From IMG/VR virus record IMGVR_UViG_3300028829_005183, positions 49,340-113,339 of that record: 64,000 bases of DNA; one strand, written 5' to 3'. A program made the position numbers and the translations under genes. The notes under the pieces were generated by a model. It did no database searches and had not been told where the DNA came from. It worked only from the letters and a program-made list of their open reading frames with translations. Each line of letters starts with the position of its first letter. Within the stretch, counting starts at the first letter, position 1. The stretch is from a virus. Positions 1-64,000 of this stretch are shown here, piece by piece.

Positions 1-1
1 G

Positions 2-670
2 GGCATCTACTATAAAACTGATGGTGATTCATTTCAGTTTGGAGATGATAAACTCATTGGTTGCGCAATATATGGATTCCCAGTTGGAGCAAGAGCAGCA
101 ACCTCTGTATGTGAGGGATTAACTAAGGATAACGCATTGGAGTTGACCAGATTGTACATCGATGATGGGTATGGTTCGAATATCGAATCATATGCGATGG
201 GACAAACATTCAAATGGTTGAAAGAAAACGATAAGAACATTAAGTTGTTGATATCGTATGCCGATGCGGGACAGGAACACTTAGGTAAGATTTATCAGGC
301 AACTAATTGGATTTATCAAGGGTTATCAACCGACATCGCACTAATGCCAAACTATGGTATCTCACTAACGAAAGACCCGTACAATTGGATTCATAGTAGA
401 ACGGTATATTCACTTTGGGGTAGTTCAAATTTAGACCACCTTAAAAACGAAATTGGTAAAGAGGGGCATAGTGAATTTTGGAGGAGAATGGAGCCACCAA
501 AACACAGATACATCCAACTATTACCACAAAACAAAAAAGAGAAGAAAGATTTGATTAAACGGTTGAAGCATGAAATCAAACCATATCCAAAGAATACGGA
601 TGATTTTAATACAGAGGTTGTGAATCATAAAACAACTTATGTAGCTGAGAGTACCGAAAGTTTTTGGTGA
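2..670 (+). CDS. Mom-like DNA-modification protein (5' partial)
   Basis: The frame is open from base 2, so the N terminus lies outside the window; 222 residues remain. Segments LTRLYIDDGYG (about residue 48), LLISYADAGQ (82-91) and IYQATNWIYQG (97-107) match the GNAT-like fold of phage Mu Mom-type proteins, which modify adenine in phage DNA to block restriction. The family call is from memory of these motifs. It overlaps the HNH gene by one base (TGATG). A generic phage acetyltransferase is the alternative. Confidence 0.65.
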   Translation, partial: GIYYKTDGDSFQFGDDKLIGCAIYGFPVGARAATSVCEGLTKDNALELTRLYIDDGYGSNIESYAMGQTFKWLKENDKNIKLLISYADAGQEHLGKIYQATNWIYQGLSTDIALMPNYGISLTKDPYNWIHSRTVYSLWGSSNLDHLKNEIGKEGHSEFWRRMEPPKHRYIQLLPQNKKEKKDLIKRLKHEIKPYPKNTDDFNTEVVNHKTTYVAESTESFW

Positions 671-1161
671 TGAATAAAGTGTTAGTTCTAAATTCAGATT
701 ACACCCCATTGAACGTAACAAATATGCGGCGTGGATTCATTCTTGTGATGAAAGGCAAGGCTGAAATTGTAAAAGAGGATGTGAACAAAATTGTAACTAC
801 GATTGGAGAGTTCGCTAAACCAATAATCATACGATTACTCAATTATATCGGATATCGGAATATGGGTATAAAGGTAAATCGTAAACGGATTATGAAGCGT
901 GATGGTTTTGAGTGTGGATATTGTGGTTCGAAAAAGAATCTTACAATCGACCATATCATTCCTAAATCTCGTGGTGGTGGTAACACTTGGGATAATTTGG
1001 TGACTTGTTGTAGTAGATGTAACACAATCAAAGATGATAGGACTCCCAAAGAAGCAGATATGGTATTGAGAGTTAAACCACATCAACCATCTATATTTTC
1101 ATCGGTAATTTCAGATGAAGTGGAAACTGAGTGGATTTTGTACAAAAAAAGTTTCCAATAA
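670..1161 (+). CDS. HNH endonuclease (McrA type)
   Basis: A 163-residue protein with a complete HNH/zinc site: CxxC at about 82-85, DHIIPKSRGG from 94, a WDN segment near 107 and a second CxxC at 114-117. It would cut DNA with a divalent metal. TTG and GTG codons just upstream are in frame, but the ATG at 670, overlapping the preceding TGA, is the natural start. Such genes in phages may be free-standing homing nucleases or packaging or recombination nucleases; the sequence does not decide. Confidence 0.85.
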   Translation: MNKVLVLNSDYTPLNVTNMRRGFILVMKGKAEIVKEDVNKIVTTIGEFAKPIIIRLLNYIGYRNMGIKVNRKRIMKRDGFECGYCGSKKNLTIDHIIPKSRGGGNTWDNLVTCCSRCNTIKDDRTPKEADMVLRVKPHQPSIFSSVISDEVETEWILYKKSFQ

Positions 1162-1163
1162 AT

Positions 1164-1194
1164 TTGGTAGATTGAAAAACATTCCTTATATTAG
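1164..1194 (+). promoter_or_regulatory. Bacteroidetes-type promoter for 1225 gene
   Basis: TTTGG with TTG at 1164 and TATATTAG at 1187, 23 bases apart start to start, matching the host -33 TTTG / -7 TAnnTTTG class. It lies in the short gap before the glycosyltransferase gene. Confidence 0.75.
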
Positions 1195-1210
1195 TAGTAT
1201 AAGAGATAAA

Positions 1211-1228
1211 ATGTATGTACCCGTATGA
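1211..1228 (+). other. Five-codon leader ORF
   Basis: ATG at 1211 opens MYVPV and stops at TGA 1226-1228, which overlaps the ATG (1225) of the glycosyltransferase. It sits just downstream of a promoter, so it would be on the mRNA. Coupling is possible but this may be chance. Confidence 0.25.
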
Positions 1229-2358
1229 ACTTTTGGGATAGTGTAGATTATAACAATGCTAGAAAGGTGTTGGTGATACCTAATATCACTAACTCTTCTA
1301 ATATTGAAAAAGATTCGTTTATTGATGTGATACATAATCATATCAAAGGACTGGAGAAGTATGGTGAGTACTATTGGCATGTTTTAGTACCAACTGGAAA
1401 TGTTACGAAGAAACTAAACTTACCAAATGTGAAACAACATCAGATTGATATTCCAGGTGATATGATGAACCAACGTTCGTTCCCATCTGATAAGTTGATG
1501 AAACTTCTAAAGGATATCGATTATGATGTAATCTATTCACACCTGCCCGATTGGCCTCAAGTCGGTAGATACAAAAACGATATCAACACTAAAATAGTTG
1601 GGTATTGCCATTGGTGGGAAATGAAGTCCTGTAATGGTGTAGACCGTAGACCTGGTAAAGCAAAGTGGTTGTGGTTACCCATCGAACTATTAGGTATATC
1701 TCAGATGGAAACCTGTTACTTAAATACACAAGACCAGAAGAATAGGGTGTTGGAAGAGGCGAGAGAAACATTCAATGAAGAGTTTGTTCAGAAGTTGGAT
1801 GATATTCTCACTGTTTGGAACTTAGGATTGGAAGAATCCAAAATAGTATCCGAACCAAAATCAGAAAAGGAAAAGGTGATTGTATTCAACCACCGAGCAG
1901 CTGCATACAAGGGGTATCCTAAGTTTATGGAGTTGATGGAAGAATATCGTAAACAGCGACAGGATTTCAAAGTTTGGATTCCGCAATTAAATGGTAAACC
2001 ACCATATGGGTGGGTAGATACTACCAAAGTACCAAAGCATGAGTACTATAAGAGATTGCAGGATTGTACCGTCGGTGTACAGATGAGGCAAACGAATTAT
2101 GGTTGGAGCGTGAGTGGTACTGATTGTATGATGAATGGAACTCCAATGATTTGGCAGGAATCCGATTGTTATCACGAAATCGACCCGAATGGTATGTTCT
2201 TCAAATACAAAAAAGAATTCTTTGAGTATTTGGATAAGATGTTAGATGATGAACCATTCCGAAAAGAGCAAGAGTTAAAATCAGTAGAGAGGGCAAACGA
2301 GCTATCTAAGAATGAGGGTAAAATGCTTGGAGAACTACACAAAAAGTTGTATATTTAA
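1225..2358 (+). CDS. GT-B fold glycosyltransferase (GT4-like)
   Basis: 377 residues. The second half has the layout of GT4 family retaining glycosyltransferases: VIVFNHRAAAYKGYPKF near 215-231, and SVSGTDCMMNGTPMIWQES near 298-316, the region that binds the nucleotide sugar in this fold. No signal peptide or membrane segment, so it is cytosolic. It sits between the HNH nuclease and DNA polymerase. Donor and acceptor (DNA, protein or glycan) cannot be read from the sequence; placement next to DNA-metabolism genes makes DNA glycosylation possible but unproven. Confidence 0.7.
   Translation: MNFWDSVDYNNARKVLVIPNITNSSNIEKDSFIDVIHNHIKGLEKYGEYYWHVLVPTGNVTKKLNLPNVKQHQIDIPGDMMNQRSFPSDKLMKLLKDIDYDVIYSHLPDWPQVGRYKNDINTKIVGYCHWWEMKSCNGVDRRPGKAKWLWLPIELLGISQMETCYLNTQDQKNRVLEEARETFNEEFVQKLDDILTVWNLGLEESKIVSEPKSEKEKVIVFNHRAAAYKGYPKFMELMEEYRKQRQDFKVWIPQLNGKPPYGWVDTTKVPKHEYYKRLQDCTVGVQMRQTNYGWSVSGTDCMMNGTPMIWQESDCYHEIDPNGMFFKYKKEFFEYLDKMLDDEPFRKEQELKSVERANELSKNEGKMLGELHKKLYI
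2327..2357 (+). promoter_or_regulatory. Promoter for DNA polymerase, inside preceding gene
   Basis: TTG at 2327 and TATATTTA at 2350, spaced 23 bases, within the last codons of the glycosyltransferase gene. The polymerase ATG at 2362 is 12 bases after the first T of the -7 box, which predicts a leaderless transcript. Confidence 0.65.
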
Positions 2359-2361: not shown

Positions 2362-4878
2362 ATGTATCAAAACGCTTATTACGAAAAAGAGGGTGGTATC
2401 ATCCATTGCTGGGATGATGAAAAAGGTTACTTTACCAAAAAGTATCGTAACTATGGTTATGTTAGAGATGGTAATGGTTCTTACGAATCAATCTATGGGG
2501 AACGGTTGAAGAAGATTAACTTTTGGAAAAACGAAGATAATCTAAAACTTTATGAATCGGATGTAAATGAAATGACCCGTTTCTTAATCGATGAATATGG
2601 TGATTCAGACGAGGTATCCACTGGTCATACTGTACTAACCTTTGATATTGAGGTAGAGATGAATAGTGGACTGCCCGATACAGATAAAGCAGAGAATACT
2701 ATGACTTCTGTAGCATTCCACGATTCAGCAACAAACGATTATTATGCTTATGTACTAAGTGAGGGTGAAGAGATAAACAAAACTATCAAAGGGGCTAAAG
2801 TCCGTTCCTTTCGTAGTGAAGAAGATATGTTGATAGCATTTGTAAATGCTTGGGAAGAGATTTCACCGACTATCATTACGGGATGGAACATTGACTTCTT
2901 TGATGTTACATATTTGTACAATCGATTAAAGCGGGTACTTGGGACATCAACAGCAAATAGGCTATCCCCAATCAGAAAAGTACATTGGAACAAATATCGT
3001 AAACGTTACATCATCGCAGGTGTATCTGCATTGGATTACATCGCATTATTTAAGAACTTTACATATACGGAATATCCCAACTATCGCTTGGATACTATCG
3101 CTAAATTAGAATTAGGTAGAGGGAAGATTGAGTACGAAGGAAACTTAGACCAATTATTCAGAGATGATATTGAGAAGTTTGTTGAATATAACTTAGTTGA
3201 TGTTGAGTTGGTGGTAGATATGGATAAGAAACTACAATTCATCGATTTGGCTAGAGCAATATGCCATGCGGGTCATGTGTTCTATGAAGATTTCTTATTC
3301 TCATCGAAATGGTTAGAGGGAGCAATTCTCACATTCCTTAGACGGAGTGGTAGGGTAGCTCCGAACAAACCACAGCGGATGTTTAAAAATGCTGATGGTT
3401 CTGATGGGGAAGGTAAGTTTATAGGTGCATATGTAAAACAACCAAAGCCCGGCCTTTACAAATGGGTATACGATTTGGATTTAACATCACTATACCCATC
3501 AATCATTATGAGTATCAATATCTCACCTGAAACTAAGATTGGTAAGGTGAAGAACTACTCCGCTGAAGAATCTATGAAGGGAAATATTGAATCATATTCT
3601 ATTATAGATAATAATGGTAGTGAATCAAAGCCCGTATCAAAAGAACACTTTACCAACTTTATTGAACAACAAAAGCTATCAATAGCATCAAATGGTGTGT
3701 TGTATTCACAGAATAGGGTTGGTATCATACCTGAGATTCTTAACGTGTGGTTTGATAAGAGAGTAGAGTACAAAGACCTGATGAAAAAATATGGTAAAGA
3801 GGGTAATGATGAACTTTATAAGTTCTACTCTCAGCGCCAGTTGGTACAAAAAATTATGTTGAATTCCCTTTACGGAGTATTGGGATTACCATCATTCAGA
3901 TTCTACGATGTTGATAACGCAGAAGCAGTAACACTTACAGGTCAGACTGTAATTAAAACAACTGAGATGATTGCCAATCAATACTATAGTAAGAACATTG
4001 GTGAAACAAAAGATTACAACATCTATGTTGATACTGATTCTGTATTCTATGAAGCAGCACCATTGGTAAAGGCTAGGAATCCTAATATTGATGTAACATC
4101 TGATAAAGAAATGATTCCAGCTATTCTATCAGTTGCTAAAGAGGTTGAGGACCATATCAATAAAGTATATGATTCAATGGCATTGAAAATGTTCAATATT
4201 AATTCACATAGATTTGATATTAAGCAAGAAACTATCGCTAAGGGTGGGTTTTGGGTATCTAAGAAAAGATACGCTCAATGGATTATCAACGATAACACTG
4301 TAGATTGTGATAAGTTGGATGTGAAAGGATTGGATGTGAAACGTTCATCATTCCCAACTTACTTCAAAGAAGTGATGAGTACTGTGTTGATGGATATCCT
4401 AAAGGATGAGAACAAAGATAAAATTGATGAGTATATTCTTAGGAAGAAAGATGAGATGAAAACTACCAACTTTATCGATATAGCAAAGAATTCAGCAGTT
4501 AAAGGTATGAGTAAGTATACATTTAAGAATCAAGCACTGGGTGAGTTTATGAAAGGAACACCAGCGCATGTTAAAGCAGCACTTACTTACAATCAACTAT
4601 TGAAATATTATAATGCAGCATTTAAATTTGAACCAATGAAAGATGGTGATAAGATTAAGTGGGTGTATTTGAAACCTAATCCATTAGGATTAGACTCCGT
4701 TGGGTTGACGGGATATAACGACCCGAAAGAGATTTTGGATTTGGTAGAACAGCATATAGATTATGAGCTAATTTGGACAAAAGAATTAGAGAATAAGTTA
4801 GATGATTTCTACAAAGCAATGGGGTGGGAAAAGCCAAATCCGAATCTAGCAAAAGCATCACAATTTTTTGGATTTTAA
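2362..4878 (+). CDS. Family B DNA polymerase (T4 gp43-like)
   Basis: 838 residues with all expected motifs in order: exonuclease I FDIEVE (94-99), exonuclease II GWNIDFFDVTYL (174-185), exonuclease III YNLVDVELV (276-284), motif A DLTSLYPS (373-380), motif B QKIMLNSLYG (496-505) and motif C YVDTDS (555-560). Both 3'-5' proofreading and polymerase active sites therefore look intact. Length is close to T4 gp43 (898). It is followed by clamp and clamp-loader genes, the usual T4-type replisome neighbours. The ATG at 2362 is chosen because it agrees with the upstream promoter and follows the previous stop by three bases. Confidence 0.97.
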   Translation: MYQNAYYEKEGGIIHCWDDEKGYFTKKYRNYGYVRDGNGSYESIYGERLKKINFWKNEDNLKLYESDVNEMTRFLIDEYGDSDEVSTGHTVLTFDIEVEMNSGLPDTDKAENTMTSVAFHDSATNDYYAYVLSEGEEINKTIKGAKVRSFRSEEDMLIAFVNAWEEISPTIITGWNIDFFDVTYLYNRLKRVLGTSTANRLSPIRKVHWNKYRKRYIIAGVSALDYIALFKNFTYTEYPNYRLDTIAKLELGRGKIEYEGNLDQLFRDDIEKFVEYNLVDVELVVDMDKKLQFIDLARAICHAGHVFYEDFLFSSKWLEGAILTFLRRSGRVAPNKPQRMFKNADGSDGEGKFIGAYVKQPKPGLYKWVYDLDLTSLYPSIIMSINISPETKIGKVKNYSAEESMKGNIESYSIIDNNGSESKPVSKEHFTNFIEQQKLSIASNGVLYSQNRVGIIPEILNVWFDKRVEYKDLMKKYGKEGNDELYKFYSQRQLVQKIMLNSLYGVLGLPSFRFYDVDNAEAVTLTGQTVIKTTEMIANQYYSKNIGETKDYNIYVDTDSVFYEAAPLVKARNPNIDVTSDKEMIPAILSVAKEVEDHINKVYDSMALKMFNINSHRFDIKQETIAKGGFWVSKKRYAQWIINDNTVDCDKLDVKGLDVKRSSFPTYFKEVMSTVLMDILKDENKDKIDEYILRKKDEMKTTNFIDIAKNSAVKGMSKYTFKNQALGEFMKGTPAHVKAALTYNQLLKYYNAAFKFEPMKDGDKIKWVYLKPNPLGLDSVGLTGYNDPKEILDLVEQHIDYELIWTKELENKLDDFYKAMGWEKPNPNLAKASQFFGF

Positions 4879-4879
4879 T

Positions 4880-4941: not shown

Positions 4942-5637
4942 ATGAAAAAAGCAAGTATTGAAAGTTTCATTAACCGATACAATCTCGGTGGTGAAGTAGA
5001 ATCGGTAAAGATTACATCTACTGATTCGGAGATGAAGGTAAGTTTTATCTCAGATGATAAAACTTTGTTAGGAGAGGTAACCTCTAAAGAGGGTGATTTT
5101 CCCAATGGTGAGTTTGGTGTTTACACAACTTCTCAGTTAAAAGCACTTTTGGGTGTATTAGAATCTAATGTGGAGGTTGACTCTACTGAATCTTACATCA
5201 AGTTTTCAGATAAGGGTACATCGGTTAATTATATGCTGGCAGACCTTTCTGTGATTCCAGTTGTTCCTGATTTGAAGCAAGTACCACCTTTCAACTCAGA
5301 AGTTACTTTGAACGATGAGTTTACATCTAAGTTTATCAAATCAAAAGGAGCGCTGAGTGAATCAGATACATTTACATTTAGTTGTATTGGTGATAAGGGT
5401 GAGGTTGTTTTAGGATATTCCACAATTAACACTAACCGAATCTCAATCTCAGTAGAATGTAAGTGTGATGGGGATGTACAACCAATCTCATTTTCAGCTA
5501 AGTATCTGAAAGAAATCCTAAATGCTAACAGAGCCTCTAAATCTGCTACATTAAAAATTTCATCGCAGGGGCTTTCTTACATTGAATTTGAAACAGATAC
5601 CATCACATCAAAATACTATTTGGTAGAGATTAAATAA
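4942..5637 (+). CDS. Sliding clamp (T4 gp45-like)
   Basis: 231 residues, almost the same length as T4 gp45 (228). It begins with a helix-like segment and ends in YYLVEIK; the alternating strand pattern and position directly between polymerase and clamp loader fit a trimeric DNA sliding clamp that holds the polymerase on DNA. In T4 this protein also activates late transcription with gp55 and gp33; whether that applies here is unknown. Its stop overlaps the next start (TAATG). Confidence 0.85.
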   Translation: MKKASIESFINRYNLGGEVESVKITSTDSEMKVSFISDDKTLLGEVTSKEGDFPNGEFGVYTTSQLKALLGVLESNVEVDSTESYIKFSDKGTSVNYMLADLSVIPVVPDLKQVPPFNSEVTLNDEFTSKFIKSKGALSESDTFTFSCIGDKGEVVLGYSTINTNRISISVECKCDGDVQPISFSAKYLKEILNANRASKSATLKISSQGLSYIEFETDTITSKYYLVEIK

Positions 5638-6851
5638 TGAGTATGAACTTTTGGGATACAGAACCAGCTAAACCAATCTTTGACTTTGAAACTCAAAAGA
5701 GGGAGTTAATCGAAAATATGGATTATCTATCTTCGATGACAGTTGAAGAACAAACACTTTACAAAAAGTGGGTTGAGTTACAAGAGCCCTCTATGATTAG
5801 GGATAAATCGCACATTGCGGAACTATACCCAACACAGTGGGCTCCGGCTGATATTAACAATTTGGAACAAACCATTTCGGAGATTGAAGCGTTAGAACCT
5901 TATGTTGAGATTGTAGAAGATGCTAAGGATTCTACTAAATGGGCATATCTCAGAAGGATGATTCATACAATGGGGTTTACCGCCAATCCTGGTCGAAACG
6001 TTAAGATTAATGTTAAAGATAGGGTTACTGGAAAGCTTTTAGGGCAGATATCACTAGCATCTGATGTAACCTCTATGAAGGTTAGAGATGACTATATTGG
6101 GTGGAGTAAAGATAATAAGTTCGTAGATAAAAAACTCAACCATACTACAATAGCATCTACAATTGTGTGTACTCAGCCACTTGGATTTAACTTCTTAGGT
6201 GGTAAGTTAGTTGCTATGATGACCACTGTGCCTGAAGTGAGGGAGTTTTGGAAAGATAAATATGGCCAGACCCTTATAGCAGTTGGGACTACATCTCTGT
6301 ATGGAATTCACTCTCAGTACAATGGTATTCCTCACTTCAAAACATTAGGTGAATCGGCCGGAAAGATTTCAATAAAACCAGATGATAAGTACTACGAACC
6401 TTGGCATCAATGGATTAAAGAAAACAGAGCAGATTGGTACGAAACTGCAATTACGAATGAAAGAATCCGTAATGGTAAAAGTATGGGTGTAGCAAGTGGG
6501 CCTGTAAGTGGTATCAAACAAAAGATTCTTGGGCAGATATTCAAAGAATGTGGTATCAAACAATCAGATTATCATCATGGGTTTAAAAGAGGTGTATATC
6601 TCGCTATGATGTATGAGAATGGGCCGGAGTTCCTTAAAGGTGAAATTGGTGAAGATGAGCTAAAGATGAAGCAGAAGTTCGAAGAGGGTGTGGATTACAT
6701 CAGTAGATGGTGGAAGAAAAAGGCAATAAAACGATACACCAAACTACACTCTGAAGGTAGATTGAAGCCAGAGCATTTGTTCTATATCGATGCGATTGGT
6801 ATGAGTTGGGAAGATATGAAAAGTAAGTATTTGAAAGAAGTTGGTAGATAA
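5637..6851 (+). CDS. DUF4338/DruA-like protein
   Basis: 404 residues. The middle of the protein (about 100-250) carries a run recalling DUF4338: MKVRDDYIGWS, then STIVCTQPLGFNFLGGKL, EFWKDKYGQTLIAVGTTSLYG and FKTLGESAG. DUF4338 includes DruA of the Druantia anti-phage system, and related proteins occur in large phages; the biochemical role is not known. It is embedded between the clamp and clamp-loader genes with TAATG-type overlaps at both ends, so it is probably made with the replisome and may act on replicating DNA. Assignment is from motif memory only. Confidence 0.5.
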   Translation: MSMNFWDTEPAKPIFDFETQKRELIENMDYLSSMTVEEQTLYKKWVELQEPSMIRDKSHIAELYPTQWAPADINNLEQTISEIEALEPYVEIVEDAKDSTKWAYLRRMIHTMGFTANPGRNVKINVKDRVTGKLLGQISLASDVTSMKVRDDYIGWSKDNKFVDKKLNHTTIASTIVCTQPLGFNFLGGKLVAMMTTVPEVREFWKDKYGQTLIAVGTTSLYGIHSQYNGIPHFKTLGESAGKISIKPDDKYYEPWHQWIKENRADWYETAITNERIRNGKSMGVASGPVSGIKQKILGQIFKECGIKQSDYHHGFKRGVYLAMMYENGPEFLKGEIGEDELKMKQKFEEGVDYISRWWKKKAIKRYTKLHSEGRLKPEHLFYIDAIGMSWEDMKSKYLKEVGR

Positions 6852-9409: not shown

Positions 9410-10357
9410 GTGAAAGATAGTAAGATAAATAACGTATTTTCTCTTGGTATTAGAGAACCCAGTGATGGAGATGTTGGGGTATCATACTCCCAATACACAA
9501 TGTATGCTAATTGCCCACATCAATGGAAGCTGAACTATATGGATGGTAACAGAACGTTTGACCCATCCATACATTTGGTGTTTGGTACAGCAATGCATGA
9601 AACACTACAAGAGTGGTTGGATATACTGTACAACAAATCACCCAAAGAAGCATCTGAGATAGATTTGGGTAAGATGTTGTATGAGTGTATGATTACCGAA
9701 TATACAAAGATGCGTAAACAGACTGGTGTTGAATTTAGTTCACCATCTGAAATGGAGGAGTTCTTAGAAGATGGAATTGAGATTCTGAACTTTGTTACAA
9801 AGAATCGCTTGGATTACTTCAATACACGTCATATGAAACTTCTAGCCATTGAGTTACCAATCTACGCTAAAGCTATGGAATCTCATAATGTATATATGAG
9901 AGGGTTCTTAGATTTGGTGTTTGAGGATACATATGAGAATAAGATTCAGATTTGGGATATCAAAACATCAACAATGGGTTGGAATAAGTGGCAAAAAGCA
10001 GATAAAACCAAAACAGCTCAGTTGGTTCTGTACAAAAAATTCCTATCCGAACAATTTGGTTACCCAATTGATAACATCAGTACCAAATACTTCATCGTAA
10101 AGAGAAAGTTGCACGAAGGTATGATGTTTGCTCAAAAGAGGGTGCAAGAATTTGTACCTTCTAGTGGTAAACCCACACTAAATAAGATAACAAAAAGTTT
10201 TGAAGATTTCATCAGAAATTCATTCAACGAAGATGGTAGCTACCGAAAAGAATCTGAGTTCCCTGCTATGGCGGGTAAGAACAATAAGAATTGTAAGTGG
10301 TGTCCGTTCAAAAATGATTTTGAGAAATGTCCGAAAGAGAATAGACATAAAGTATGA
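9410..10357 (+). CDS. Cas4/RecB-like PD-(D/E)XK exonuclease with Fe-S cysteines
   Basis: 315 residues. Nuclease motifs run in order: GTAMHETLQ (59-67), GFLD (165-168) and WDIKT (182-186, the DxK). One cysteine at 35 and three near the C terminus (295, 298, 307) form the split four-cysteine set that holds a 4Fe-4S cluster in Cas4 and AddB-type nucleases. It probably resects DNA ends in replication or recombination. The start is GTG at 9410: no ATG lies nearby and the conserved cysteine at 35 must be kept. Confidence 0.85.
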   Translation: MKDSKINNVFSLGIREPSDGDVGVSYSQYTMYANCPHQWKLNYMDGNRTFDPSIHLVFGTAMHETLQEWLDILYNKSPKEASEIDLGKMLYECMITEYTKMRKQTGVEFSSPSEMEEFLEDGIEILNFVTKNRLDYFNTRHMKLLAIELPIYAKAMESHNVYMRGFLDLVFEDTYENKIQIWDIKTSTMGWNKWQKADKTKTAQLVLYKKFLSEQFGYPIDNISTKYFIVKRKLHEGMMFAQKRVQEFVPSSGKPTLNKITKSFEDFIRNSFNEDGSYRKESEFPAMAGKNNKNCKWCPFKNDFEKCPKENRHKV

Positions 10358-19362: not shown

Positions 19363-20299
19363 GGTAGCAGTTTATATATCATCAAGAAACAACTATTCGT
19401 TGTTAGAAGAGTTTATTGAGAGAAACAAAGCGGAGTTAGAAAACGTATACTTCGTTAACATAGATGATTTCTCAGATAAAGGTGAAATTATCTTAGGCCG
19501 TTCAATATGTGCTAAGTATAATATCCCATTCATAGAGAATCGGGCCAGAGGACTTCAGAATGCCACAAAAACTATGATTGAACACTTAGATAGAGTTGAT
19601 AAGAGCTATAAGTATATTCTGTGGATGACGCATGATTCACATACGATAACAGATAACTTTGTATCTAAATTTGATAGTATTGTTTCAACGGGTGTTCTCG
19701 ATGAATTTGGTGTTGTTGGGTTCAACATCTTAGGACCTCAGTGTCACGTTAGAAATCAATCTAAAGTTTCACCAAATCAATGTGGTATGTTAGGTAGAGC
19801 ACCACTAACAAAACTACCAGGTCGTGGTGGGTGGTATAGAACTCCTGATATGGTTTTAGATTGGGATATTTGGGGTGGTAGTAGAGCAATAGCTGTAGAA
19901 TCTCCTGTAGATATGACCCTCGCTATCAACATCGATATGTTTAAGAAATATATTGATGTGAGCGGCCAGTATCATTTGTTTTGTGCATTTGATGATATTT
20001 GTATGCAGTTCTTAAATCGTGGTGTGTACAATGTAACCCTACCACATCTACAAATATGGCATGACCAGCATATTAAAGATGGTAAGGTGCCGGTAAAATC
20101 CGCCACTGCCGCAAAGAAAGGTGATTCGAAGCACTTTGGTGATTATGGGCCTCATTTAGTTAAATGGAAATCTTCTTGGGGATGGGATCGTGATGATGTT
20201 AGAAATACATTCCCAACCGATAGATATCCAAATGGACTGATTCGTGAGTTTTACGACCACGACTATACAAACGGACCAATTAAAACATTTGAGTTATGA
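19355..20299 (+). CDS. GT2-like glycosyltransferase
   Basis: 314 residues. KVAVYISSRNNYSLLEEFI at the start and YILWMTHDSHTI near 87-98 (in the place of the DxD motif) suggest a GT-A fold; the second half with FCAFDDICMQFLNRG resembles the acceptor side of GT2 enzymes. The classic DxD reads HDSH, so metal use is uncertain. Confidence 0.6.
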   Translation: MSKVAVYISSRNNYSLLEEFIERNKAELENVYFVNIDDFSDKGEIILGRSICAKYNIPFIENRARGLQNATKTMIEHLDRVDKSYKYILWMTHDSHTITDNFVSKFDSIVSTGVLDEFGVVGFNILGPQCHVRNQSKVSPNQCGMLGRAPLTKLPGRGGWYRTPDMVLDWDIWGGSRAIAVESPVDMTLAINIDMFKKYIDVSGQYHLFCAFDDICMQFLNRGVYNVTLPHLQIWHDQHIKDGKVPVKSATAAKKGDSKHFGDYGPHLVKWKSSWGWDRDDVRNTFPTDRYPNGLIREFYDHDYTNGPIKTFEL

Positions 20300-30773: not shown

Positions 30774-31385
30774 ATGCGTTACACAAAAGAACAAATTGAA
30801 ACAGTTGTTAAATCCAAAGGTTACAAATGGTTCACATCAAATAACTACGATGTAAATATCGTTGGTGTTAGAAATGGTGATACAAATGGTGAAGTTACCA
30901 ATAAGTTTGATGACCACCTTACTATCTCATATAGAGATAATAATGGTAATTGGAACTTTCACTGCTTTGAAGCAACAACGGATCCCGGCTCGCACTGGAC
31001 TGAAAAGCAACTACTAAATGAAAATGGAGTAGCTATTCTAAAAGAAGGGCAATACAGAGGTTCACATAAGATTGGACTTCATCAGGGTAAGTACGAAGCA
31101 CTCAGACAGAAGAAACCATTGAAAGTGTATCGTGATAAGAATATGGATGTATGCTATGATTTTATCGAAGAGAATGTACACGAAGGTATCTATGGTATCA
31201 ATATTCACAGAGCAACGGCACGAAAGGGTGGTAAATCCGTTCAGGTTGATAAGTGGTCTGCTGGGTGTCAAGTGATTGCAGCGAATGATGATTTCAATTT
31301 ATTTATGGATATCTGTAGAAAGGCTAAGAATGTATGGGGCAACTCATTTACATATACACTAATTAACTCAGATGATATTTCGTAA
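30774..31385 (+). CDS. YkuD/DUF5675-like cell-wall protein
   Basis: 203 residues from the ATG at 30774. YGINIHRATARKGG and DKWSAGCQVIAANDDF resemble the His and SxGC(x)xI motif shared by L,D-transpeptidases and DUF5675 phage proteins; the cysteine in SAGC would be the nucleophile. No signal peptide is visible. A lysis or peptidoglycan role is likely, and membrane (holin-like) genes follow downstream. Weak family call. Confidence 0.5.
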   Translation: MRYTKEQIETVVKSKGYKWFTSNNYDVNIVGVRNGDTNGEVTNKFDDHLTISYRDNNGNWNFHCFEATTDPGSHWTEKQLLNENGVAILKEGQYRGSHKIGLHQGKYEALRQKKPLKVYRDKNMDVCYDFIEENVHEGIYGINIHRATARKGGKSVQVDKWSAGCQVIAANDDFNLFMDICRKAKNVWGNSFTYTLINSDDIS

Positions 31386-34948: not shown

Positions 34949-34949
34949 G

Positions 34950-36059
34950 ATGAGAAGTGTATTACTTTTATTGTGTGTACTACCTTTGATGGTACATGCC
35001 CAGCAACCTAAGTTTGGTGAAGAACCATCAAAAAGGTGGACAGAAAGTGAGTTCTCAAAAAAGTTCAAAAGAGAATTTAAGTTTTCAACATTTTACCTTG
35101 CGTATAATGGTAACAACTCGGTTTCTGACGTAACAACATATTCAGTAACCAATGGGTTAACCACAACAACCTCATCTACACCATATGATTATTCAGGTGT
35201 ATTTGGTATCAGAAAAATTCAACGATTCGGATACGAACCAAACATTCAGAACCGATTCAAAAATGGTACTGAGAACTCATTCTCTGATGCTGCGACAATT
35301 GGTAGTAAATCGAGAGGATTTGAATATCTTTTTGAGTTTGATTATAGAAGGCAGCAGGGTAGAGAGTTTTTGAGTCAAGACCACTTCCTTAGATACATTG
35401 CTGATAGATATGTTTTGAAGGTAGAGTATCTTGAGGACGGAATCGCAGATATTGGTTACTTCGAAGCATCACAAAGATTTAGACATAAGTTCAACAGAAA
35501 GTTTTCAATAAACGCTGGAGCGGTTCAGAGAATCTCAGAACCATATGGATACGACCCACTGGATGAGTGGTTATTGGCTAATGGTAATATTCACTTTACC
35601 AATCTTGCTATCAATGAAATGGGTTATAGTATTGATTTCTCAGATGGATTAGATGGTATTCAATACATAGACCCCAACGGAGTAGTAGTTGCTACCAATA
35701 GAGAGGTTTGGGAAGCAGTTACAATCCCAAAAGTACTATCAGATTATGTTGATTTAAAAAGAAGTGAGCTACCAGATAAGTGGGAATACTCTTTAGTTAT
35801 TGGTTTCGATTACTACCACTACTCAAAAGATTTTTGGTTACATTCTTGGGCTAATGTACTACCATATCATGTAGATATAGATAATGAGTATAGCTATCAT
35901 ACATTCAATAACGGACAGTGGATTGATTATTCGGGTGGATTAATATTCGGATACAGATTCACAAAATCACTTGGGGTATTTACTGAAGGGAGATATCACA
36001 AGTACTGGAATCGCAGTTGGTACGAATTTTCAACTGGAATTAACTTCATAATATTATAA
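34950..36059 (+). CDS. Probable outer-membrane beta-barrel protein
   Basis: 369 residues with a signal peptide (RSVLLLLCVLPLMVHAQ) ending in AQQ, then alternating hydrophobic/polar strands rich in F, Y and W and a C terminus (YEFSTGINFIIL) of outer-membrane barrel type. No enzyme motif. Starts one base after the T9SS repeat protein with AAGGAG seven bases upstream of its ATG. It may be inserted in the host outer membrane. Confidence 0.55.
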   Translation: MRSVLLLLCVLPLMVHAQQPKFGEEPSKRWTESEFSKKFKREFKFSTFYLAYNGNNSVSDVTTYSVTNGLTTTTSSTPYDYSGVFGIRKIQRFGYEPNIQNRFKNGTENSFSDAATIGSKSRGFEYLFEFDYRRQQGREFLSQDHFLRYIADRYVLKVEYLEDGIADIGYFEASQRFRHKFNRKFSINAGAVQRISEPYGYDPLDEWLLANGNIHFTNLAINEMGYSIDFSDGLDGIQYIDPNGVVVATNREVWEAVTIPKVLSDYVDLKRSELPDKWEYSLVIGFDYYHYSKDFWLHSWANVLPYHVDIDNEYSYHTFNNGQWIDYSGGLIFGYRFTKSLGVFTEGRYHKYWNRSWYEFSTGINFIIL

Positions 36060-47047: not shown

Positions 47048-49201
<2,154 letters not shown>

Positions 49202-49205
<4 letters not shown>

Positions 49206-50362
49206 CGAATATTGAATATGATAGCTTATTGAAATGGGCTAATGATAGGGGATATAATTTACACCCAGCGATTGAATACAAAATTGTAGATGGTATTGGT
49301 GGTATGTACGCTACAGAAGATATCCCAAAATCAACTACATTGTACACTGGGCCTGTTTCTCTTTTTAGTGAATGGGGTAATAAGTTGGTTAACAATGATT
49401 ACATATCACGTATGTTCGATGAATACAAAAAGGGTGAAGATTCTGATATACATCAGATGTTTTTAGCACATGAATCGTTGGATTCGTTCAAAAAAAGTAG
49501 TATCTTCTTCGCCACAGCTGATGAGTTGAGTAAGTTGGAAGAAATATCACCAACGGATTACGCAATCGCACTCACTACTATTGATAGAATAAAACACAGA
49601 AGTGAGTGGTGGTCGGATAAAGAACCTGAACTATCTCGTGATGAAATCGTATGGATGCTACTTAATTTTGATACTAGGTCTTGGTCTGATGGTGGGTTTA
49701 ATCCAATATTAGATTTGTTTAACCATTCAAATAATGTGGGAGCATCTAGATTTAATAGCGAAGATGGTAATAAATCCAAATTAATTGCTGTGGTAGATTA
49801 TAAGGCCGGTGACCAAATTTATGATTCATATGGAATCCACGATATGAGTAAGTTCTTATCAAGCTACAACTTCTTCGATAGAACTGATATGCACTATGTG
49901 GATTTGATTAGTAGGGTTGATTTTCCACTTAGTAGTGATGTTGATTTGAAATTGTACGAAGAAGTCAAACGCAGATTCACCACCAAAGAAATTGAGGTTG
50001 ATGGGGTTAAGAAGTATAAAATAATTGATGCCGGAGCATTTCTAACTGAATACGGACCAAATACACAATTTTTGGTTCTGGTTGATATATTCGCACGTAG
50101 GGATATTGAAACAATAGACAACCCAACACAAACCAATCAGATGAATGCTGCTGTGGTATATTTCGAATGGTTGAATATGTTTTACGATTCTATGAAACCA
50201 AATTTGAAATCAAAAGATGAATTAACCGATAGGTTGAAACCTTGGCATGATGTGATTGTGAAAGAAAAGTTGATAATAGAAAACTGCCTTCAATGGCTTA
50301 AGTATACATCTACAAGTGCACTTGAAATAAAGTTGAACGAAAATTTGGAAAATAGTAAATAA
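49202..50362 (+). CDS. SET-domain methyltransferase (SETD/RLSMT-like)
   Basis: 386 residues. GMYATEDIPKSTTLYTGP (34-51) is the SET N-terminal strand region, NPILDLFNHS (167-176) is the N-H-S signature, and DQIYDSYGIHDMSKFLSSYNFF (204-225) holds the catalytic SYG tyrosine. The order and an inserted helical region match the SETD3/SETD6/RuBisCO-methyltransferase type, which methylate lysine or histidine with SAM. It overlaps the J-domain gene by ATGA. The C-terminal third would be the substrate-binding part. Target protein unknown. Confidence 0.8.
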
Positions 50363-53684: not shown

Positions 53685-56399
53685 ATGATGATGAAAAAAC
53701 TATTATTTGCAGTAATGATGGCGGGTTTGCCATTTGTGAATACTTTTGCGCAAGTTAGCGGAAAAGTTTTAGGAGAAGGTAGTAAAGATGGACTTCCAGG
53801 GGCAACCGTATTAATTAAAGGAACTGCGGTTGGTTCAGTAACAGATACGGAAGGAAACTTTACAATCCCTTCAGCAACTAAAACTGATACTCTTACGGTA
53901 TCATTTTTGGGGTATCTACAATCAGAAAACATTGGTGGAGGCACCATAGTTTTACAACCTGATGTAGAATTGATAGGAGAGGTAATTGTTACCTCTGGCG
54001 TTATTGATATCGCTAAGGTGCGAGAAACACCTGTTGCGGTATCAAAAATCTCCCCACAGGAGATTGCACTAAAGACGGGAAACCAAGAGTTTCCTGAAAT
54101 TATGAACCGAACTCCTGGCGTATATGCTACGAAGCAAGGTGGTGGTTATGGTGATTCCCGACTATCTCTACGTGGATTCGACCAACGTAACACTTCATTT
54201 CTTATCAACGGACAACCCGTTAATGATATGGAAAATGGTTGGGTGTATTGGTCGAACTGGCAAGGTCTAACAGATGTTGCTAGTGGTATCCAAATTCAAC
54301 GTGGCTTGGGTGCATCTCGATTGGCAGTTCCATCTGTTGGTGGTACTGTATCCATTTTCACCAAAGCAGCACAGCTCGATGAGGGTGGTTCAGTTGCACA
54401 AACTATGGGTAACGATGGTTATCTAAAAACAACAGTCAACTATAACTCAGGTAAAGATGAGAATGGTTGGGCTACATCATTCCTATTAAGTAAGTGGGGT
54501 GGTGATGGTTATGTGTACAATACTTCAGGTGAAGGTTGGACTTACTTTGGTGCGGTTGGGTATGAGCCAGAGGGTTCATCTCATAAAATGAATCTATCCG
54601 TATTAGGTGCTGGGCAGTGGCATCACCAACGTGATGTTTGGGTATCTATACGTGATTTCCAAAACTTTGGTGAAGCAAACGCCGATGGTATCGATGCTCG
54701 ATGGAATTCAAACGGTGGAACGCGTGATGGAGAAGAGTTCAATATGAGAAGAAACTTCTACAACAAACCACTTGCTACATTCAACTGGGATTGGGATATT
54801 ACTGAAAACCTCACTTTGAACACATCTCTATATGGTTCTGCTGGTCGTGGTGGTGGTACTGGACCTCGTGGTAGAAACTATGATGTACTTCCATACAGAA
54901 AAGATTTGTATGAGTTTATGTACGAAGATAGTGTAACTACATTCCGTAACGATGATGGAACTATCAACTATGATGCAATTGTTGATGCTAACCAAGCAGG
55001 CGCTCAGCCATATGGTGTAGCCGATTCATTGGTTGACTCACCATTCTATGGTCAGTTGATTGGTTCCAATGGATTCTCAGATAATGGAGTGTACAGTGGC
55101 GGTATGATTCGTAGAGCATCTATGAACTCACATGATTGGGTTGGGGCAATCTCTAACTTAGAAGGTGAGTGGGGTAATTGGAAAACATCATTGGGTGTTG
55201 ACCTTCGTAGATACAAAGGGTATCATTATCGTGTAGTTAACGATTTGATGGGACTTGATGCATACTACTCTACTGGTAATGATAACTCAAATGGTCAGTT
55301 CATCAATACAACTGTAAACGCATCACCATTCAATAACACAGGATTAAACGGTCCTAAGATTGATTACTATAATGTTGGTAAAGTTGGATGGGCTGGTTTA
55401 AATGGTATGGTTGAGTACAACAAAGATGATAAATTCAACGCTGTTGTCCAAACAGGTGTATCGAATCAATCTTACCAAAGAGAAGATTACTTCGACCAAC
55501 CAGAAAACCCAATTTCAGAAACATCTAACTTGTTAGGTGGTTATGTGAAGGGTGGTGCTAACTTCAACATCGATGAAAAGAACAATGTGTTCTTCAACGC
55601 GGGTTTGATTTCACGCCAACCAATGTTTGATGCGGTGTTCCCTAACTATGGAAACTCAATTAACGATGATTTACAGAACGAAGAAATCCGTTCAATCGAA
55701 TTGGGGTATGGTTATAATACTCGTGATTTGACTGTGAATGTGAACGCATACTCTACAAACTGGGGTAATCGTTTTATCACTCGTTCATTGGCTAACCAAC
55801 AAGGTGTTGATGGATTCGCTCAGTTCCGTGATATCGACGTACAACACAATGGTATCGAATTGGAAGCGAAGTACTACACTACCGATAAGTTGACTCTAAC
55901 GGGTATGGTATCTGCTGGTGATTGGAAGTACACTAAGGACTTCACTTCAACGTTATACGATGAGAACCAAACTGAGATTGGTACTGGTACATTGTACTTA
56001 GAAGGTGCTAAAGTGGGTGATGCTGCACAATTTGTGGCTAACTTGGGTGCTGACTACAAAGTTACCAAAAACATCTCTATGGATGCTGGATATCGTTTTG
56101 TTGATGGATTATACGCTGATTACTCAATTCTTGATGATGTGTTCACTCAGGATGATAATGCTGGCGCATTGAAGCTACCTTCTTATGGTTTATTGGACTT
56201 GGGTATTACTGCTAGGGTTGGTAACTTCCAATTCAGAACCAATATGAACAACGCACTAAACACTACATATATTGCAGAATCTAACACAAACATTCACACT
56301 ACTGAAACTTCAGATACGTGGAATGGTGTTGATACACAAAACTTTGTATGGTTTGGGTTTGGTAGAACTTGGAATGCTAGTTTGAAATACACTTTCTGA
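53685..56399 (+). CDS. TonB-dependent receptor (SusC-like)
   Basis: 904 residues. A signal peptide (KKLLFAVMMAGLPFVNTFAQ) is followed by a carboxypeptidase-regulatory-like domain (GKVLGEGSKDGLPGATVLIK; about 24-95), then a plug (TPVAVSKISPQEI, EIMNRTPGVYATKQGG, LSLRGFDQRNTSFLINGQP) and a long aromatic beta-barrel ending FGRTWNASLKYTF, the last-strand pattern for outer-membrane insertion. Length is normal for the family, which imports vitamins, metals or glycans with TonB energy. Terminators flank it on both sides. Its codon choice resembles its neighbours. Confidence 0.95.
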   Translation: MMMKKLLFAVMMAGLPFVNTFAQVSGKVLGEGSKDGLPGATVLIKGTAVGSVTDTEGNFTIPSATKTDTLTVSFLGYLQSENIGGGTIVLQPDVELIGEVIVTSGVIDIAKVRETPVAVSKISPQEIALKTGNQEFPEIMNRTPGVYATKQGGGYGDSRLSLRGFDQRNTSFLINGQPVNDMENGWVYWSNWQGLTDVASGIQIQRGLGASRLAVPSVGGTVSIFTKAAQLDEGGSVAQTMGNDGYLKTTVNYNSGKDENGWATSFLLSKWGGDGYVYNTSGEGWTYFGAVGYEPEGSSHKMNLSVLGAGQWHHQRDVWVSIRDFQNFGEANADGIDARWNSNGGTRDGEEFNMRRNFYNKPLATFNWDWDITENLTLNTSLYGSAGRGGGTGPRGRNYDVLPYRKDLYEFMYEDSVTTFRNDDGTINYDAIVDANQAGAQPYGVADSLVDSPFYGQLIGSNGFSDNGVYSGGMIRRASMNSHDWVGAISNLEGEWGNWKTSLGVDLRRYKGYHYRVVNDLMGLDAYYSTGNDNSNGQFINTTVNASPFNNTGLNGPKIDYYNVGKVGWAGLNGMVEYNKDDKFNAVVQTGVSNQSYQREDYFDQPENPISETSNLLGGYVKGGANFNIDEKNNVFFNAGLISRQPMFDAVFPNYGNSINDDLQNEEIRSIELGYGYNTRDLTVNVNAYSTNWGNRFITRSLANQQGVDGFAQFRDIDVQHNGIELEAKYYTTDKLTLTGMVSAGDWKYTKDFTSTLYDENQTEIGTGTLYLEGAKVGDAAQFVANLGADYKVTKNISMDAGYRFVDGLYADYSILDDVFTQDDNAGALKLPSYGLLDLGITARVGNFQFRTNMNNALNTTYIAESNTNIHTTETSDTWNGVDTQNFVWFGFGRTWNASLKYTF

Positions 56400-56538: not shown

Positions 56539-58437
56539 ATGCGTCTAATATCTTTTTTCTCTGTACTATTCTTTCTACACTTCACAATCAAAGGTCAATG
56601 TGATGTAGCTATAACTGATGTGAATCTCAATACATATGAGGTTACAGTTGAAGTAATTAACTCAGCGGGATGTACCGCAAATGGACCAGGTGGTGTTAAT
56701 GGGGCAGTAACCATGCTACAAATAGGTTATCACTTGCCAGAAGCCATCGATCCAGATAATGAGGTAGTTGACCTATTAACACTACCAAATGCTCCATGCA
56801 GTCCACAATGGGTAGATAATGGGTACAACTTAGGTATGAATCCTACTAGCTTTCATCCTGGTTGGTGGTATAGTCCATCTACATCAGTAACTTTTCAATC
56901 AGATATTATGGGTGATGGGTTAATTACTGGCGATGTGGTTACCATCCCTCTTAATCCACCAGGTGATTATATTACTTACCCCAACCCCGTTGCCGAATGT
57001 GGGGATGATTTAATTGATTATTGGTTATCAGAAGATGAATGTATTGAATTTGTAGTATGGCAATTAAATTATGGTTCAACTTGGTATGAAAACAATGGGG
57101 GCTGGGCAACGGGTGAAGGGCCTGGAACATATCAAGATCAAAATTGTAACAATTCGTGGTATCTATGTAGAGATGAGAATCCCGGTGCGGCTGTAGCATC
57201 TCCTGATTTTGCTTGCCCGCCAGATGCACCAGATGCAGTAGTTGGTGATATTGAGTTTGATATAGGTTGTATAGGTGATATACCTACATATCAACTAACA
57301 TACACAGTATTTAATTATGGTAATGCACCAATAACCGATTATTGTATTGAAATATGGAATGAAGATTATTATCAATGTTTTGATTCAGAACTTTTTGGTT
57401 CATATGAAATTGGAGTAGGTGAGGGTCAACAATTCACTACACCTTTTTTTGAATATGATGGCGGTGCTAGTATTTTTGTAGTTTCTGTTGATAATGTTAA
57501 TGATGAAGTTATTACAGGTAATAACAATACTTCAGTTTACTATCCTGATGAGTTAGATGAATTAGTATGTCCTGAAGTGTGCGAACCAGATACTGTTGAA
57601 ATTGAAACAATCACTTACATAACTCAAATAGATTCAATATTCATAACTGATACAGCATACGATACCATCTATATTCAATTACCACCTGAAATAATCTATG
57701 ATACTTTAGTAGTCATTGATGTTGTAGATAACTTCATCTATGATACCATTTATGTTGATAACTTCATCTATGATACCGTCTATGTAGATAACTTCATCTA
57801 TGATACCGTCTATGTAGATAACTTCATCTATGATACTACTTACATTTACGTCGAACTACCACCGGATACACTAATAGTTACTGAGGTGGAATATGTAACA
57901 GATACCATTTATATTGATAATTACATTTACGAATACGATACTGTGTATGTGGATGTTCCAATAGTGGATACCCTTTATATTACAGAAACCGAATACATAG
58001 TAGATACATTATTTGTAACAGAATACATAACTATAACAGATACGATAACAGAATACATAGTTCAGGAGATGTGGATTGATTGTATTACAGGTTTACCATG
58101 TGATGAAGAACCACCTGGAATGCAATGTCCTGATTGGACTACGATTCATATACCAAATACATTTACTCCAAATAATGATGGACACAATGATGTTTGGAAA
58201 GTGATTTATGATTTGAGCTGTTGGGAAGATGTGGAGTTTAAAATATTCAATCGGTGGGGTAATCAGATATATGAGGGATATGGTGATTACTACGAATCAT
58301 ATCCATTTTGGGATGGAAGTGTGAATGGGGGAGATTATTACGCTCAAGATGGGGTATACTTCTATTTATTCAAAGCAAAGAAAGTGGGAATGGTAGAGGT
58401 TATCGAAAAGCAAGGACACATAACAATTTTCAGATAA
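56539..58437 (+). CDS. Secreted protein with T9SS type B sorting domain
   Basis: 632 residues: signal peptide (RLISFFSVLFFLHFTIKGQ), several beta-sandwich-like regions, a linker of repeated DNFIYDTVYV units (about 395-434), and a C-terminal 90-residue domain with IPNTFTPNNDGHNDVWKV, FNRWGNQIYEG, WDGSVNGG and DGVYFYLFKAK, the gliding-motility-associated (type B) sorting signal. It should pass through the host type IX system. AAGGAG lies five bases upstream. Two of the five GATC sites are in this gene. Confidence 0.88.
   Translation: MRLISFFSVLFFLHFTIKGQCDVAITDVNLNTYEVTVEVINSAGCTANGPGGVNGAVTMLQIGYHLPEAIDPDNEVVDLLTLPNAPCSPQWVDNGYNLGMNPTSFHPGWWYSPSTSVTFQSDIMGDGLITGDVVTIPLNPPGDYITYPNPVAECGDDLIDYWLSEDECIEFVVWQLNYGSTWYENNGGWATGEGPGTYQDQNCNNSWYLCRDENPGAAVASPDFACPPDAPDAVVGDIEFDIGCIGDIPTYQLTYTVFNYGNAPITDYCIEIWNEDYYQCFDSELFGSYEIGVGEGQQFTTPFFEYDGGASIFVVSVDNVNDEVITGNNNTSVYYPDELDELVCPEVCEPDTVEIETITYITQIDSIFITDTAYDTIYIQLPPEIIYDTLVVIDVVDNFIYDTIYVDNFIYDTVYVDNFIYDTVYVDNFIYDTTYIYVELPPDTLIVTEVEYVTDTIYIDNYIYEYDTVYVDVPIVDTLYITETEYIVDTLFVTEYITITDTITEYIVQEMWIDCITGLPCDEEPPGMQCPDWTTIHIPNTFTPNNDGHNDVWKVIYDLSCWEDVEFKIFNRWGNQIYEGYGDYYESYPFWDGSVNGGDYYAQDGVYFYLFKAKKVGMVEVIEKQGHITIFR
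57724..57843 (+). repeat. Four 30-base direct repeats encoding DNFIYDTVYV
   Basis: Four head-to-tail units of GTAGATAACTTCATCTATGA plus ten bases, nearly identical at DNA level, unlike the diverged repeats at 33-34.5 kb. Such recent repeats can change copy number by slippage. Confidence 0.92.
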
Positions 58438-62492: not shown

Positions 62493-62509
62493 TACTGTAA
62501 GATTGAGAG

Positions 62510-62848: not shown

Positions 62849-62849
62849 T

Positions 62850-63074: not shown

Positions 63075-63084
63075 ATTCAAAAAT

Positions 63085-63270
63085 ATGTTAATAGTTTTAG
63101 AATCAGTAGGAAGTGTGTTCGATACTTCCAGTATGTGTATCTATCCACAGAAAGTGGATGGAAGTTATGATAAAGAAGTTAGTATCTCAATCGAAGAAGA
63201 AGAGGTATCAAAAGATTGGTGGGATTCCCTATCAGTTGAGGATTATGATACTGTAACTTGTTGTATGTAA
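63085..63270 (+). CDS. Small protein of unknown function
   Basis: 61 residues, MLIVLESVGSVFDTSSMCIY with an acidic middle and CCM at the end. Not recognised. Confidence 0.55.
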   Translation: MLIVLESVGSVFDTSSMCIYPQKVDGSYDKEVSISIEEEEVSKDWWDSLSVEDYDTVTCCM

Positions 63271-63271
63271 T

Positions 63272-63733
63272 ATGGGATATAACAAATTTAGATGGTATAC
63301 CAAAGGTAACCGAAAGAAACCATTAAAGAAATCAGAACCACTTCTATTGAGAATCAGAAATGGTGATTTTGAGTATTCACCATATTTCGATGAAGCAAAA
63401 GAAGAAAGAGCAAAGGGGAAGGAGATATATGATGATTATATGAAAACCACATATATCCGTGATGAGATAGAGAAAAAAAAAGAAGCACTTCAACGTAGTA
63501 AGATGAAGAGAGTGAAAGCTCTAAAGTTGAATGAAGAGGCAGATAAGGAAGAAAAGAAACGATTGAAGGAACTAAAACTCGCCTTAGAGAAGGAGTTTGG
63601 GAAAGACCTTTGGGATAAGGCAATGAAGAGGCAAAGGGGGAAGGGAACTACCGAAGATTTGTATTGGTGGTATAAGAAGCAATGTAAACTCACATATACT
63701 CCTTCAGAACTAAAAATCTTCTTGAAACGATAA
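63272..63733 (+). CDS. Basic coiled-coil protein of unknown function
   Basis: 153 residues. Basic N terminus (YTKGNRKKPLKKSEPLLL), then a long charged helix rich in K, E and R from about 65 to 115. It may bind DNA or RNA. Last longer gene in the window. Confidence 0.6.
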   Translation: MGYNKFRWYTKGNRKKPLKKSEPLLLRIRNGDFEYSPYFDEAKEERAKGKEIYDDYMKTTYIRDEIEKKKEALQRSKMKRVKALKLNEEADKEEKKRLKELKLALEKEFGKDLWDKAMKRQRGKGTTEDLYWWYKKQCKLTYTPSELKIFLKR

Positions 63734-63887
63734 CCCAACGATGGGAACTCCGTAGGTTGGAAACCGAAGGTGTGTAGAGAAAAAATTCCAGGGGAATTTC
63801 TTTAAGCCGTGTTCATATGAATGGATACGGTTTAATTATGCCGTGGGGTGATATATATGAATAGAACTTTGGTGGTGAGGTGAACAA
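63734..63887 (+). other. Gene-free, hairpin-rich stretch
   Basis: 154 bases with no convincing gene. CCAAC / GTTGG arms near 63735 and 63754, an AAATTCC-AGG-GGAATTT hairpin near 63784-63802 and CCGTG...ACGG with TTCATATGAA inside near 63810-63831. The second could end transcription of the 63272 gene; the others suggest folded RNA. Confidence 0.4.
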
Positions 63888-63998
63888 ATGAATGAGATAA
63901 TTATAAATCAGCAAATGTTGAAAGAGATAGAAGTAACAATAGTATTCCTATTAGTGTATATGATACTATGGTATGTATGGTCAGATAAGGAACTCTAA
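63888..63998 (+). CDS. 36-residue single-pass membrane peptide
   Basis: MNEIIINQQMLKEIE then VTIVFLLVYMILWYVW and a charged end. Ends two bases from the window edge. A small phage membrane peptide is likely. Confidence 0.5.
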   Translation: MNEIIINQQMLKEIEVTIVFLLVYMILWYVWSDKEL

Positions 63999-64000
63999 CC

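Follow-up and report, generated by a model that had tools for sequence, protein, structure and literature searches.

Why is the word GATC almost missing from the DNA of a large phage? The stretch that raises this question, hereafter the window, is 64,000 nucleotides long. It forms the right part (positions 49,340 to 113,339) of the 113,339-base IMG/VR record IMGVR_UViG_3300028829_005183, which may itself be a fragment. The scarcity of GATC was noticed in a first-pass annotation made from the sequence alone. Three observations go beyond that annotation: the trait is clade-wide, the surviving sites are non-random, and a pair of Mom-family genes lies at the left edge of the window. We consider it probable that restriction by its hosts has selected GATC out of this phage lineage.

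GATC is nearly eliminated from the window and the record

A recount gave exactly five GATC sites, identical to those in the first-pass annotation (Table 1). Base composition predicts ~207 sites, and a second-order Markov model using trinucleotides predicts 349. The 4-mer count that the annotation had proposed thus returned a Markov ratio of 0.014, the lowest among all 4-mers of the window; CATG (0.26) and CTAG (0.29) follow. Other palindromes had been described as present. For CATG and CTAG this needs correction, as both are also low in codon shuffles (ratios of 0.43 and 0.29). The whole record contains 11 GATC sites, compared with 620 expected. Burge's compositional bias for GATC is 0.034 in the window and 0.043 in the record. 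The accessible text of Rusinov et al. (2018; PMC6286503) calls a site eliminated below a bias of 0.1, if more than 15 are expected; both of our values are below that limit, and the 349 sites expected in the window exceed the required number.

Selection acts on the word, not the protein

Synonymous codons were shuffled 300 times within 82 open reading frames (ORFs) of the window, keeping proteins and codon usage; the ORF calls were mechanical, and a few of these frames are probably spurious. The shuffled sequences contained 226.5 GATC sites on average (standard deviation 10.7, minimum 189), compared with five observed. Codon pairs were then counted in the whole record. Before a codon starting with C, aspartate is written GAC at 163 of 174 positions, as the first-pass annotation had proposed. 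Before A, G or T the counts are 31/826, 35/920 and 72/621 (4 to 12%). After G, isoleucine is never ATC (0/454), a codon used about a third of the time otherwise, and glycine before TC is never GGA (0/145). Avoidance of the G-ATC and GA-TC codon pairs (hyphens mark codon boundaries), also suggested earlier, is therefore complete. All 11 sites in the record are aspartate GAT-C, and so occupy 11 of the 174 aspartate codons before C. A 40-kb stretch of cyanophage S-SSM4, with 202 GATC sites where 218 are expected, has no such codon pattern. Codon-pair counts and shuffles agree that selection is on the word itself, in all frames. Since every frame offers GATC a synonymous exit, synonymous changes suffice for the purge.

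The loss is shared by a clade of large phages

Judged by its family B DNA polymerase (PolB), contractile-tail and clamp-loader genes, the record is a T4-like phage. Among annotated phages, the polymerase is closest to that of Microcystis phage Mel-JY01 (48%) and then to those of cyanophages. The tail sheath is also closest to Mel-JY01 (59%). A ribonucleotide reductase gene is present, and the clamp-loader A subunit scored 26.9 bits, just short of the cut-off of 27.

We collected 80 polymerase loci with 67 to 92% best-segment identity, several of which are copies of one virus. Here and below, paired GATC figures for records and loci are observed/expected. Pooled, the 80 loci hold 39/6211; GATC is missing altogether from 62 of them, and the ratio reaches 0.107 at most. 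Ratios below 0.1 occur in 4 of these loci for TCGA, 11 for CATG and 22 for CTAG. No GATC at all is left in three records, of 148, 181 and 190 kb; for the 181-kb example (G016), ~671 were expected. Other longer records gave 1/699 (G020), 2/612 (G027), 13/658 (G017), 20/661 (G007), 0/552 (G030), 0/424 (G034), 6/1020 (G029) and 0/357 (Mel-JY01). G022 (34/499) and G035 (122/647) are weaker avoiders. G035 avoids GATC only partially and to a varying degree along its genome, and it has no TCGA at all. Among G020, G027, G035 and Mel-JY01, other words have been lost entirely (CATG 0/530, TCGA 0/298 and 0/194, CTAG 0/156), and Mel-JY01 is also at zero for GGACC (0/107) and GAATTC (0/96).

A polymerase alignment search returned 80 loci, of which 6 were already in the first set. 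The 74 further loci comprise 37 with ratios below 0.15, 12 between and 25 with ratios of at least 0.5. A FastTree phylogeny was built with 157 tips (3 of 160 sequences lacked a usable polymerase). The clade containing the window is uniform, but beyond it avoiders and non-avoiders stand as sister lineages. One case is Mel-JY01 (0/92 in 50 kb), which shares a clade of support 1.0 with loci L310-L314 (ratios of 0.46 to 0.78). Hence, avoidance shifts between sister phages and depends on circumstances, as host pressure would predict. Three other phages that are T4-like or related by their sheath, immuto, RM378 and LR756508 (50-kb stretches), do not avoid GATC.

Surviving sites share a sequence context

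Two of the five window sites fit GATCC[A/C/T]G (GATCCHG). In the six strict avoiders that have survivors, 49 of 53 do so on one strand: 7/11 in G000, 13/13 in G017, 20/20 in G007, 6/6 in G029, 1/1 in G020 and 2/2 in G027. The base rate in non-avoiders is 92/1082 (~8.5%), and the weaker avoiders G022 (5/34) and G035 (26/122) do not show the pattern. Merging homologous positions reduced 54 ORF entries to 46 independent survivors, 42 of which are in context (binomial 1e-40 at 0.085). None of the 46 is GATCCGG, for which 32 were expected in shuffles. When every fetched locus that keeps a GATC and has a ratio below 0.2 is counted, without removing relaxed lineages or near-copies, 45 of 149 sites fit. 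Loci of the strict clade fit strongly, and those of L063-L069 (bar one site) and L288-L309 do not fit.

Codon shuffles gave the same picture. Observed/expected counts in context and elsewhere were 20/31 versus 0/466 in G007, 13/41 versus 0/470 in G017 and 7/27 versus 4/379 in G000. In G029 (7/84), G027 (2/37) and G020 (1/38) nothing survives outside the context, and G016, G030, G034 and Mel-JY01 have no survivors in either class. Sparing is not confined to a single frame or strand, although it is strongest at Asp-Pro. We considered a conflict between forbidden words, as CCCNG is low in several genomes. This could contribute at Asp-Pro but is insufficient, because the context is still spared in the GA-TC frame (9/145, compared with 0/601 elsewhere), where glycine and serine have free alternatives. 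Separately, GATCGTG accounts for three of the record's four out-of-context survivors (window 20186 and 48978; record 19091).

We tentatively suggest that the survivors mark a protected context. Escape would then have two layers, site loss and a sequence-limited protection of the DNA, perhaps by the tandem Mom proteins or a host methylase; we consider this reading less likely than not. Alternatively, the nuclease itself may spare these sites.

A tandem Mom pair at the left edge of the window

The second Mom ORF (record 49170-50009) begins 170 bases to the left of the window. Both copies, the only two matches in the record, pass the PF25680 cut-off of 27.1 bits and are Mom-like by phrog_1384. 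Mom acylates adenine N6 and protects phage DNA (PMC7824862, accessible text). By homology, the pair is predicted to modify DNA. The HNH ORF that follows has the HNH part of IscB as its best NCBIfam match, under the cut-off, and no counterpart among eight other genomes or stretches compared.

Mom-family genes over the cut-off occur in 26 of 80 records, and many relatives have two or three copies. Among 154 PolB loci, Mom lies nearby in 64 (GATC ratios below 0.2 in 61, below 0.45 in three and above that in none). The other 90, some of which are too short to extend to where Mom would lie, comprise 58 avoiders, five intermediates and 27 non-avoiders. The association gives a Fisher value of 1e-7 with kinship ignored. 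Summed over codon shuffles, with the relaxed avoiders G022 and G035 excluded, Mom-bearing genomes keep 43 of 261 expected sites and Mom-less genomes keep 7 of 218. Mom may be the source of the spared context. Contrary to this, G029 shows sparing with no Mom match in 276 kb, and G030 has Mom but zero survivors.

GATC enzymes in candidate hosts and in phages

Two record proteins have type IX secretion system sorting tails, one type A and one type B, over the cut-off. Together with a third protein, TonB-linked and of the outer membrane according to a partial match under the cut-off, these point to Bacteroidota hosts. We sampled 296 genomes from one order, that of G080, a metagenome-assembled genome titled Flavobacteriales. 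Matches over cut-off were to the MutH/Sau3AI family in 8 genomes, to DpnI (PF06044) for 5 of 7 matches, one match in the set carrying an internal stop, and to DpnII for 1 of 2. In all, GATC nuclease families were found in 13 genomes and HaeIII (GGCC) in 2. D12 methylases occur in 72, many of the matches being weak. Enzymes of the kind that the first-pass annotation suggested looking for thus occur in a small part of one order of candidate hosts.

Sau3AI is a two-domain enzyme and MutH is short. The MutH/Sau3AI matches are ORFs of 417 to 481 amino acids, with a second match in 7 of the 8 genomes. At L401 (98-3160), a row of bacterial genes contains Sau3AI-type and DpnI-type ORFs beside one that is, by its motifs, a probable C5 DNA methylase. 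According to the accessible text of PMC11037411, Sau3AI cuts GATC regardless of N6-methyladenine (m6A), and DpnI cuts Gm6ATC, as does the DpnI-like FcyTI of Flavobacterium cyanobacteriorum. Hence, adenine methylation would not save a site from such enzymes.

In the phages, which may be represented by fragments, no MutH/Sau3AI match over cut-off was found in 28 records (one had E 0.21), and DpnI and DpnII had no match in 41. The D12 (Dam-like) family had no match in the record itself or in any avoider among 64 records; other methylase families were not profile-searched. Below-cut-off D12 matches were seen in G045 (L366, ratio 0.26) and G047 (L310, ratio 0.51, two matches), and a match over cut-off in LR756508 (ratio 0.95). 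Mel-JY01, which has no GATC, carries an annotated DNA modification methylase with no assigned specificity. A methylase motif search gave five loose candidates, in G007, G027, G029 (two) and G035; it is insensitive, because the annotated Mel-JY01 methylase was missed.

Explanations for the loss

The first-pass annotation had proposed escape from either a GATC-cutting restriction system or a Dam-type signal. Restriction is the best-supported cause. The Dam alternative is unsupported, there being no D12 methylase in the record and no MutH/Sau3AI family member over cut-off in the 28 phages. Consistent with restriction, complete loss of other palindromes is confined to certain lineages. The GATC-free receptor-like gene and the depletion of a seemingly different phage with the same receptor, both described below, also count in its favour. 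We infer the identity of the hosts, as we do the actual cutting, the Mom activity and any reason for sparing GATCCHG. Some Bacteroidota possess enzymes that cut unmethylated GATC, and some possess enzymes that cut the adenine-methylated form. With neither methylation state safe, loss of the site would be the most robust escape. Synonymous codon changes would be enough for the purge, and many members add DNA modification genes in the form of two or three Mom-type acyltransferases.

Several points weigh against host restriction. Mel-JY01, the only isolate in the polymerase family for which a host is named, comes by its record from the cyanobacterium Microcystis elabens, so Bacteroidota hosts are a provisional assignment. 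Six other seawater Bacteroidota phages (30-kb stretches) show partial avoidance (four, 0.20 to 0.67) or none (two, 0.94 and 1.01). GATC nucleases passed the cut-off in only 13 of the 296 genomes, and DpnII was found in none of 44 receptor-bearing genomes. The pressure would therefore have to be exerted by enzymes that are rarer, different or unrecognised, or within some other group of hosts. Finally, restriction alone leaves the spared 7-mer unaccounted for.

These last points bring in a non-classical defence directed at GATC. Phosphorothioation-dependent restriction is one such defence type, and an unrecognised system is another option; the target would be longer and exclude GATCCHG. The scarcity of known GATC nucleases and the context of the 42 independent survivors, with GATCCGG missing, would both fit. 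No such system was identified, however, and G022 and G035 show no sparing. We regard this explanation as rather unlikely.

It is less likely still that the phage encodes a GATC-cutting nuclease of its own, used against host or rival DNA, and has dropped the site for self-protection. A clade-wide and nearly absolute loss would suit such an enzyme, and the window encodes HNH, PD-(D/E)XK and nonspecific endonuclease genes. The nuclease families sought in the phage records nevertheless had no match over cut-off, as described above. Furthermore, comparing BLAST clusters, a single gene family is present in all 12 avoider genomes and in none of six non-avoider sequences (three are 50-kb stretches and the others possibly fragments). 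Its member here (record 34574-35218, 214 amino acids) lies among tail-region genes and matches neither Pfam nor PHROG. The PD-(D/E)XK protein and a 204-residue HNH protein were rejected as candidates, since both occur in non-avoiders too.

Mismatch repair, with counterselection by MutH-like nicking of unmethylated GATC, has been discussed for phiX174 and other enterobacteriophages (PMC5014478, accessible text). Here it is very improbable: the eight MutH/Sau3AI matches are, by length and second match, Sau3AI-like rather than short MutH, and the same clade loses other palindromes by lineage. Mutation bias (such as deamination of methylated GATC sites) and a library artefact can both be set aside, because GAC replaces GAT almost only before C, a T-to-C change that is the reverse of deamination, and contigs of one metagenome (3300025849) differ (L265 0/69, L301 52/86).

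The receptor-like gene and neighbouring features

The receptor-like gene contains no GATC. Among its 77 homologues in bacterial genomes (short alignments and L164 excluded), the median is 8 sites per 2.7 kb; none of them is GATC-free, compared with 57 of 79 in viral contigs. Relatives are encoded in 406 viral-contig stretches, including what appears to be a different phage (L164/L309). Of 80 such contigs, many of which may belong to the polymerase clade, 59 have ratios below 0.15, two lie between and 19 are at 0.5 or above. We also took 80 loci with this gene from Bacteroidota assemblies. L164 was set aside as phage-like and the other 79, which were not inspected individually, gave a pooled ratio of 0.82 (76 above 0.5, lowest 0.31). 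L164 is a contig binned in a Crocinitomicaceae metagenome-assembled genome; its ORFs and a 100% protein match in IMG/VR mark it as phage-like. L164, L293 and L309, seemingly another kind of phage with the same receptor (which may nevertheless carry PolB), are depleted too (0.09 to 0.12). One might guess at a decoy or superinfection role for this gene.

The DruA-domain gene sits in the replication block, between a probable clamp gene (by position, after the polymerase) and the clamp-loader-like ORF. Its BLAST cluster includes 7 of the 12 avoider genomes and one non-avoider.

Table 1. Features of the window and its left flank (window positions unless marked)
Feature	Position	Strand	Remarks
GATC-depleted stretch, 5 sites	1..64000	.	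5 vs 349; bias 0.034; shuffle mean 226.5
First Mom-family copy	record 48467-49225		PF25680 148.5 bits
Second Mom-family gene, 3' part	1..670	+	PF25680 98.7 bits (window 137-670)
HNH nuclease ORF	664..1161	+	directly after Mom pair
Family B DNA polymerase, clade marker	2362..4878	+	
DruA-domain protein	5637..6851	+	PF14236 78.8 bits
PD-(D/E)XK exonuclease-like protein	9410..10357	+	
Residual GATC	20186..20189	.	context GATCGTG
Residual GATC	30981..30984	.	spared context GATCCCG
Residual GATC	48978..48981	.	context GATCGTG
TonB-linked outer-membrane receptor-like gene	53685..56399	+	NCBIfam SusC/RagA, residues 23-178, below cut-off
Residual GATC	56749..56752	.	spared context GATCCAG
Residual GATC	57136..57139	.	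context GATCAAA

Comparison with known systems

Loss of GATC is near-total in one clade of large phages, and lineages beside it keep the word; a comparison of hosts is therefore a way to look for the cause. The sites that remain, being structured, give a testable route from sequence to the protection or cutting specificity of uncultured systems. If the context is indeed protected, the specificity of a modification enzyme or nuclease could be read from viral genomes alone.

The accessible text of PMC6286503 describes restriction-site avoidance in phages, and reports that 46 phages, all with hosts encoding Type IIM GATC enzymes, each had a GATC bias below 1. As in that work, a short palindrome of the kind that Type II enzymes target has almost gone here, with a bias of 0.034. 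Unlike there, the loss of a single word extends across a PolB clade of large phages, leaving a structured remainder in six genomes. Complete loss of the same word is known from phiX174-type enterobacterial phages (accessible text of PMC5014478), for which Dam/MutH repair is discussed, whereas the present hosts are probably Bacteroidota and we found no Dam or MutH link. With phage Mu and its Mom modification the record shares genes of the PF25680 family, two in tandem here and two or three in many relatives. Unlike in Mu, they are combined with near-total site loss and are known from sequence alone. The DpnI-like enzymes of Flavobacteriia (PF06044, 5 in the 296 genomes), which resemble FcyTI (PMC11037411), are candidate selective agents. 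The accessible literature gave no description of GATC loss in this clade or of the spared context, which is no proof of absence. Avoidance through host restriction is thus of a known kind; its completeness, its clade-wide spread and the spared 7-mer are, within the literature searched, new.

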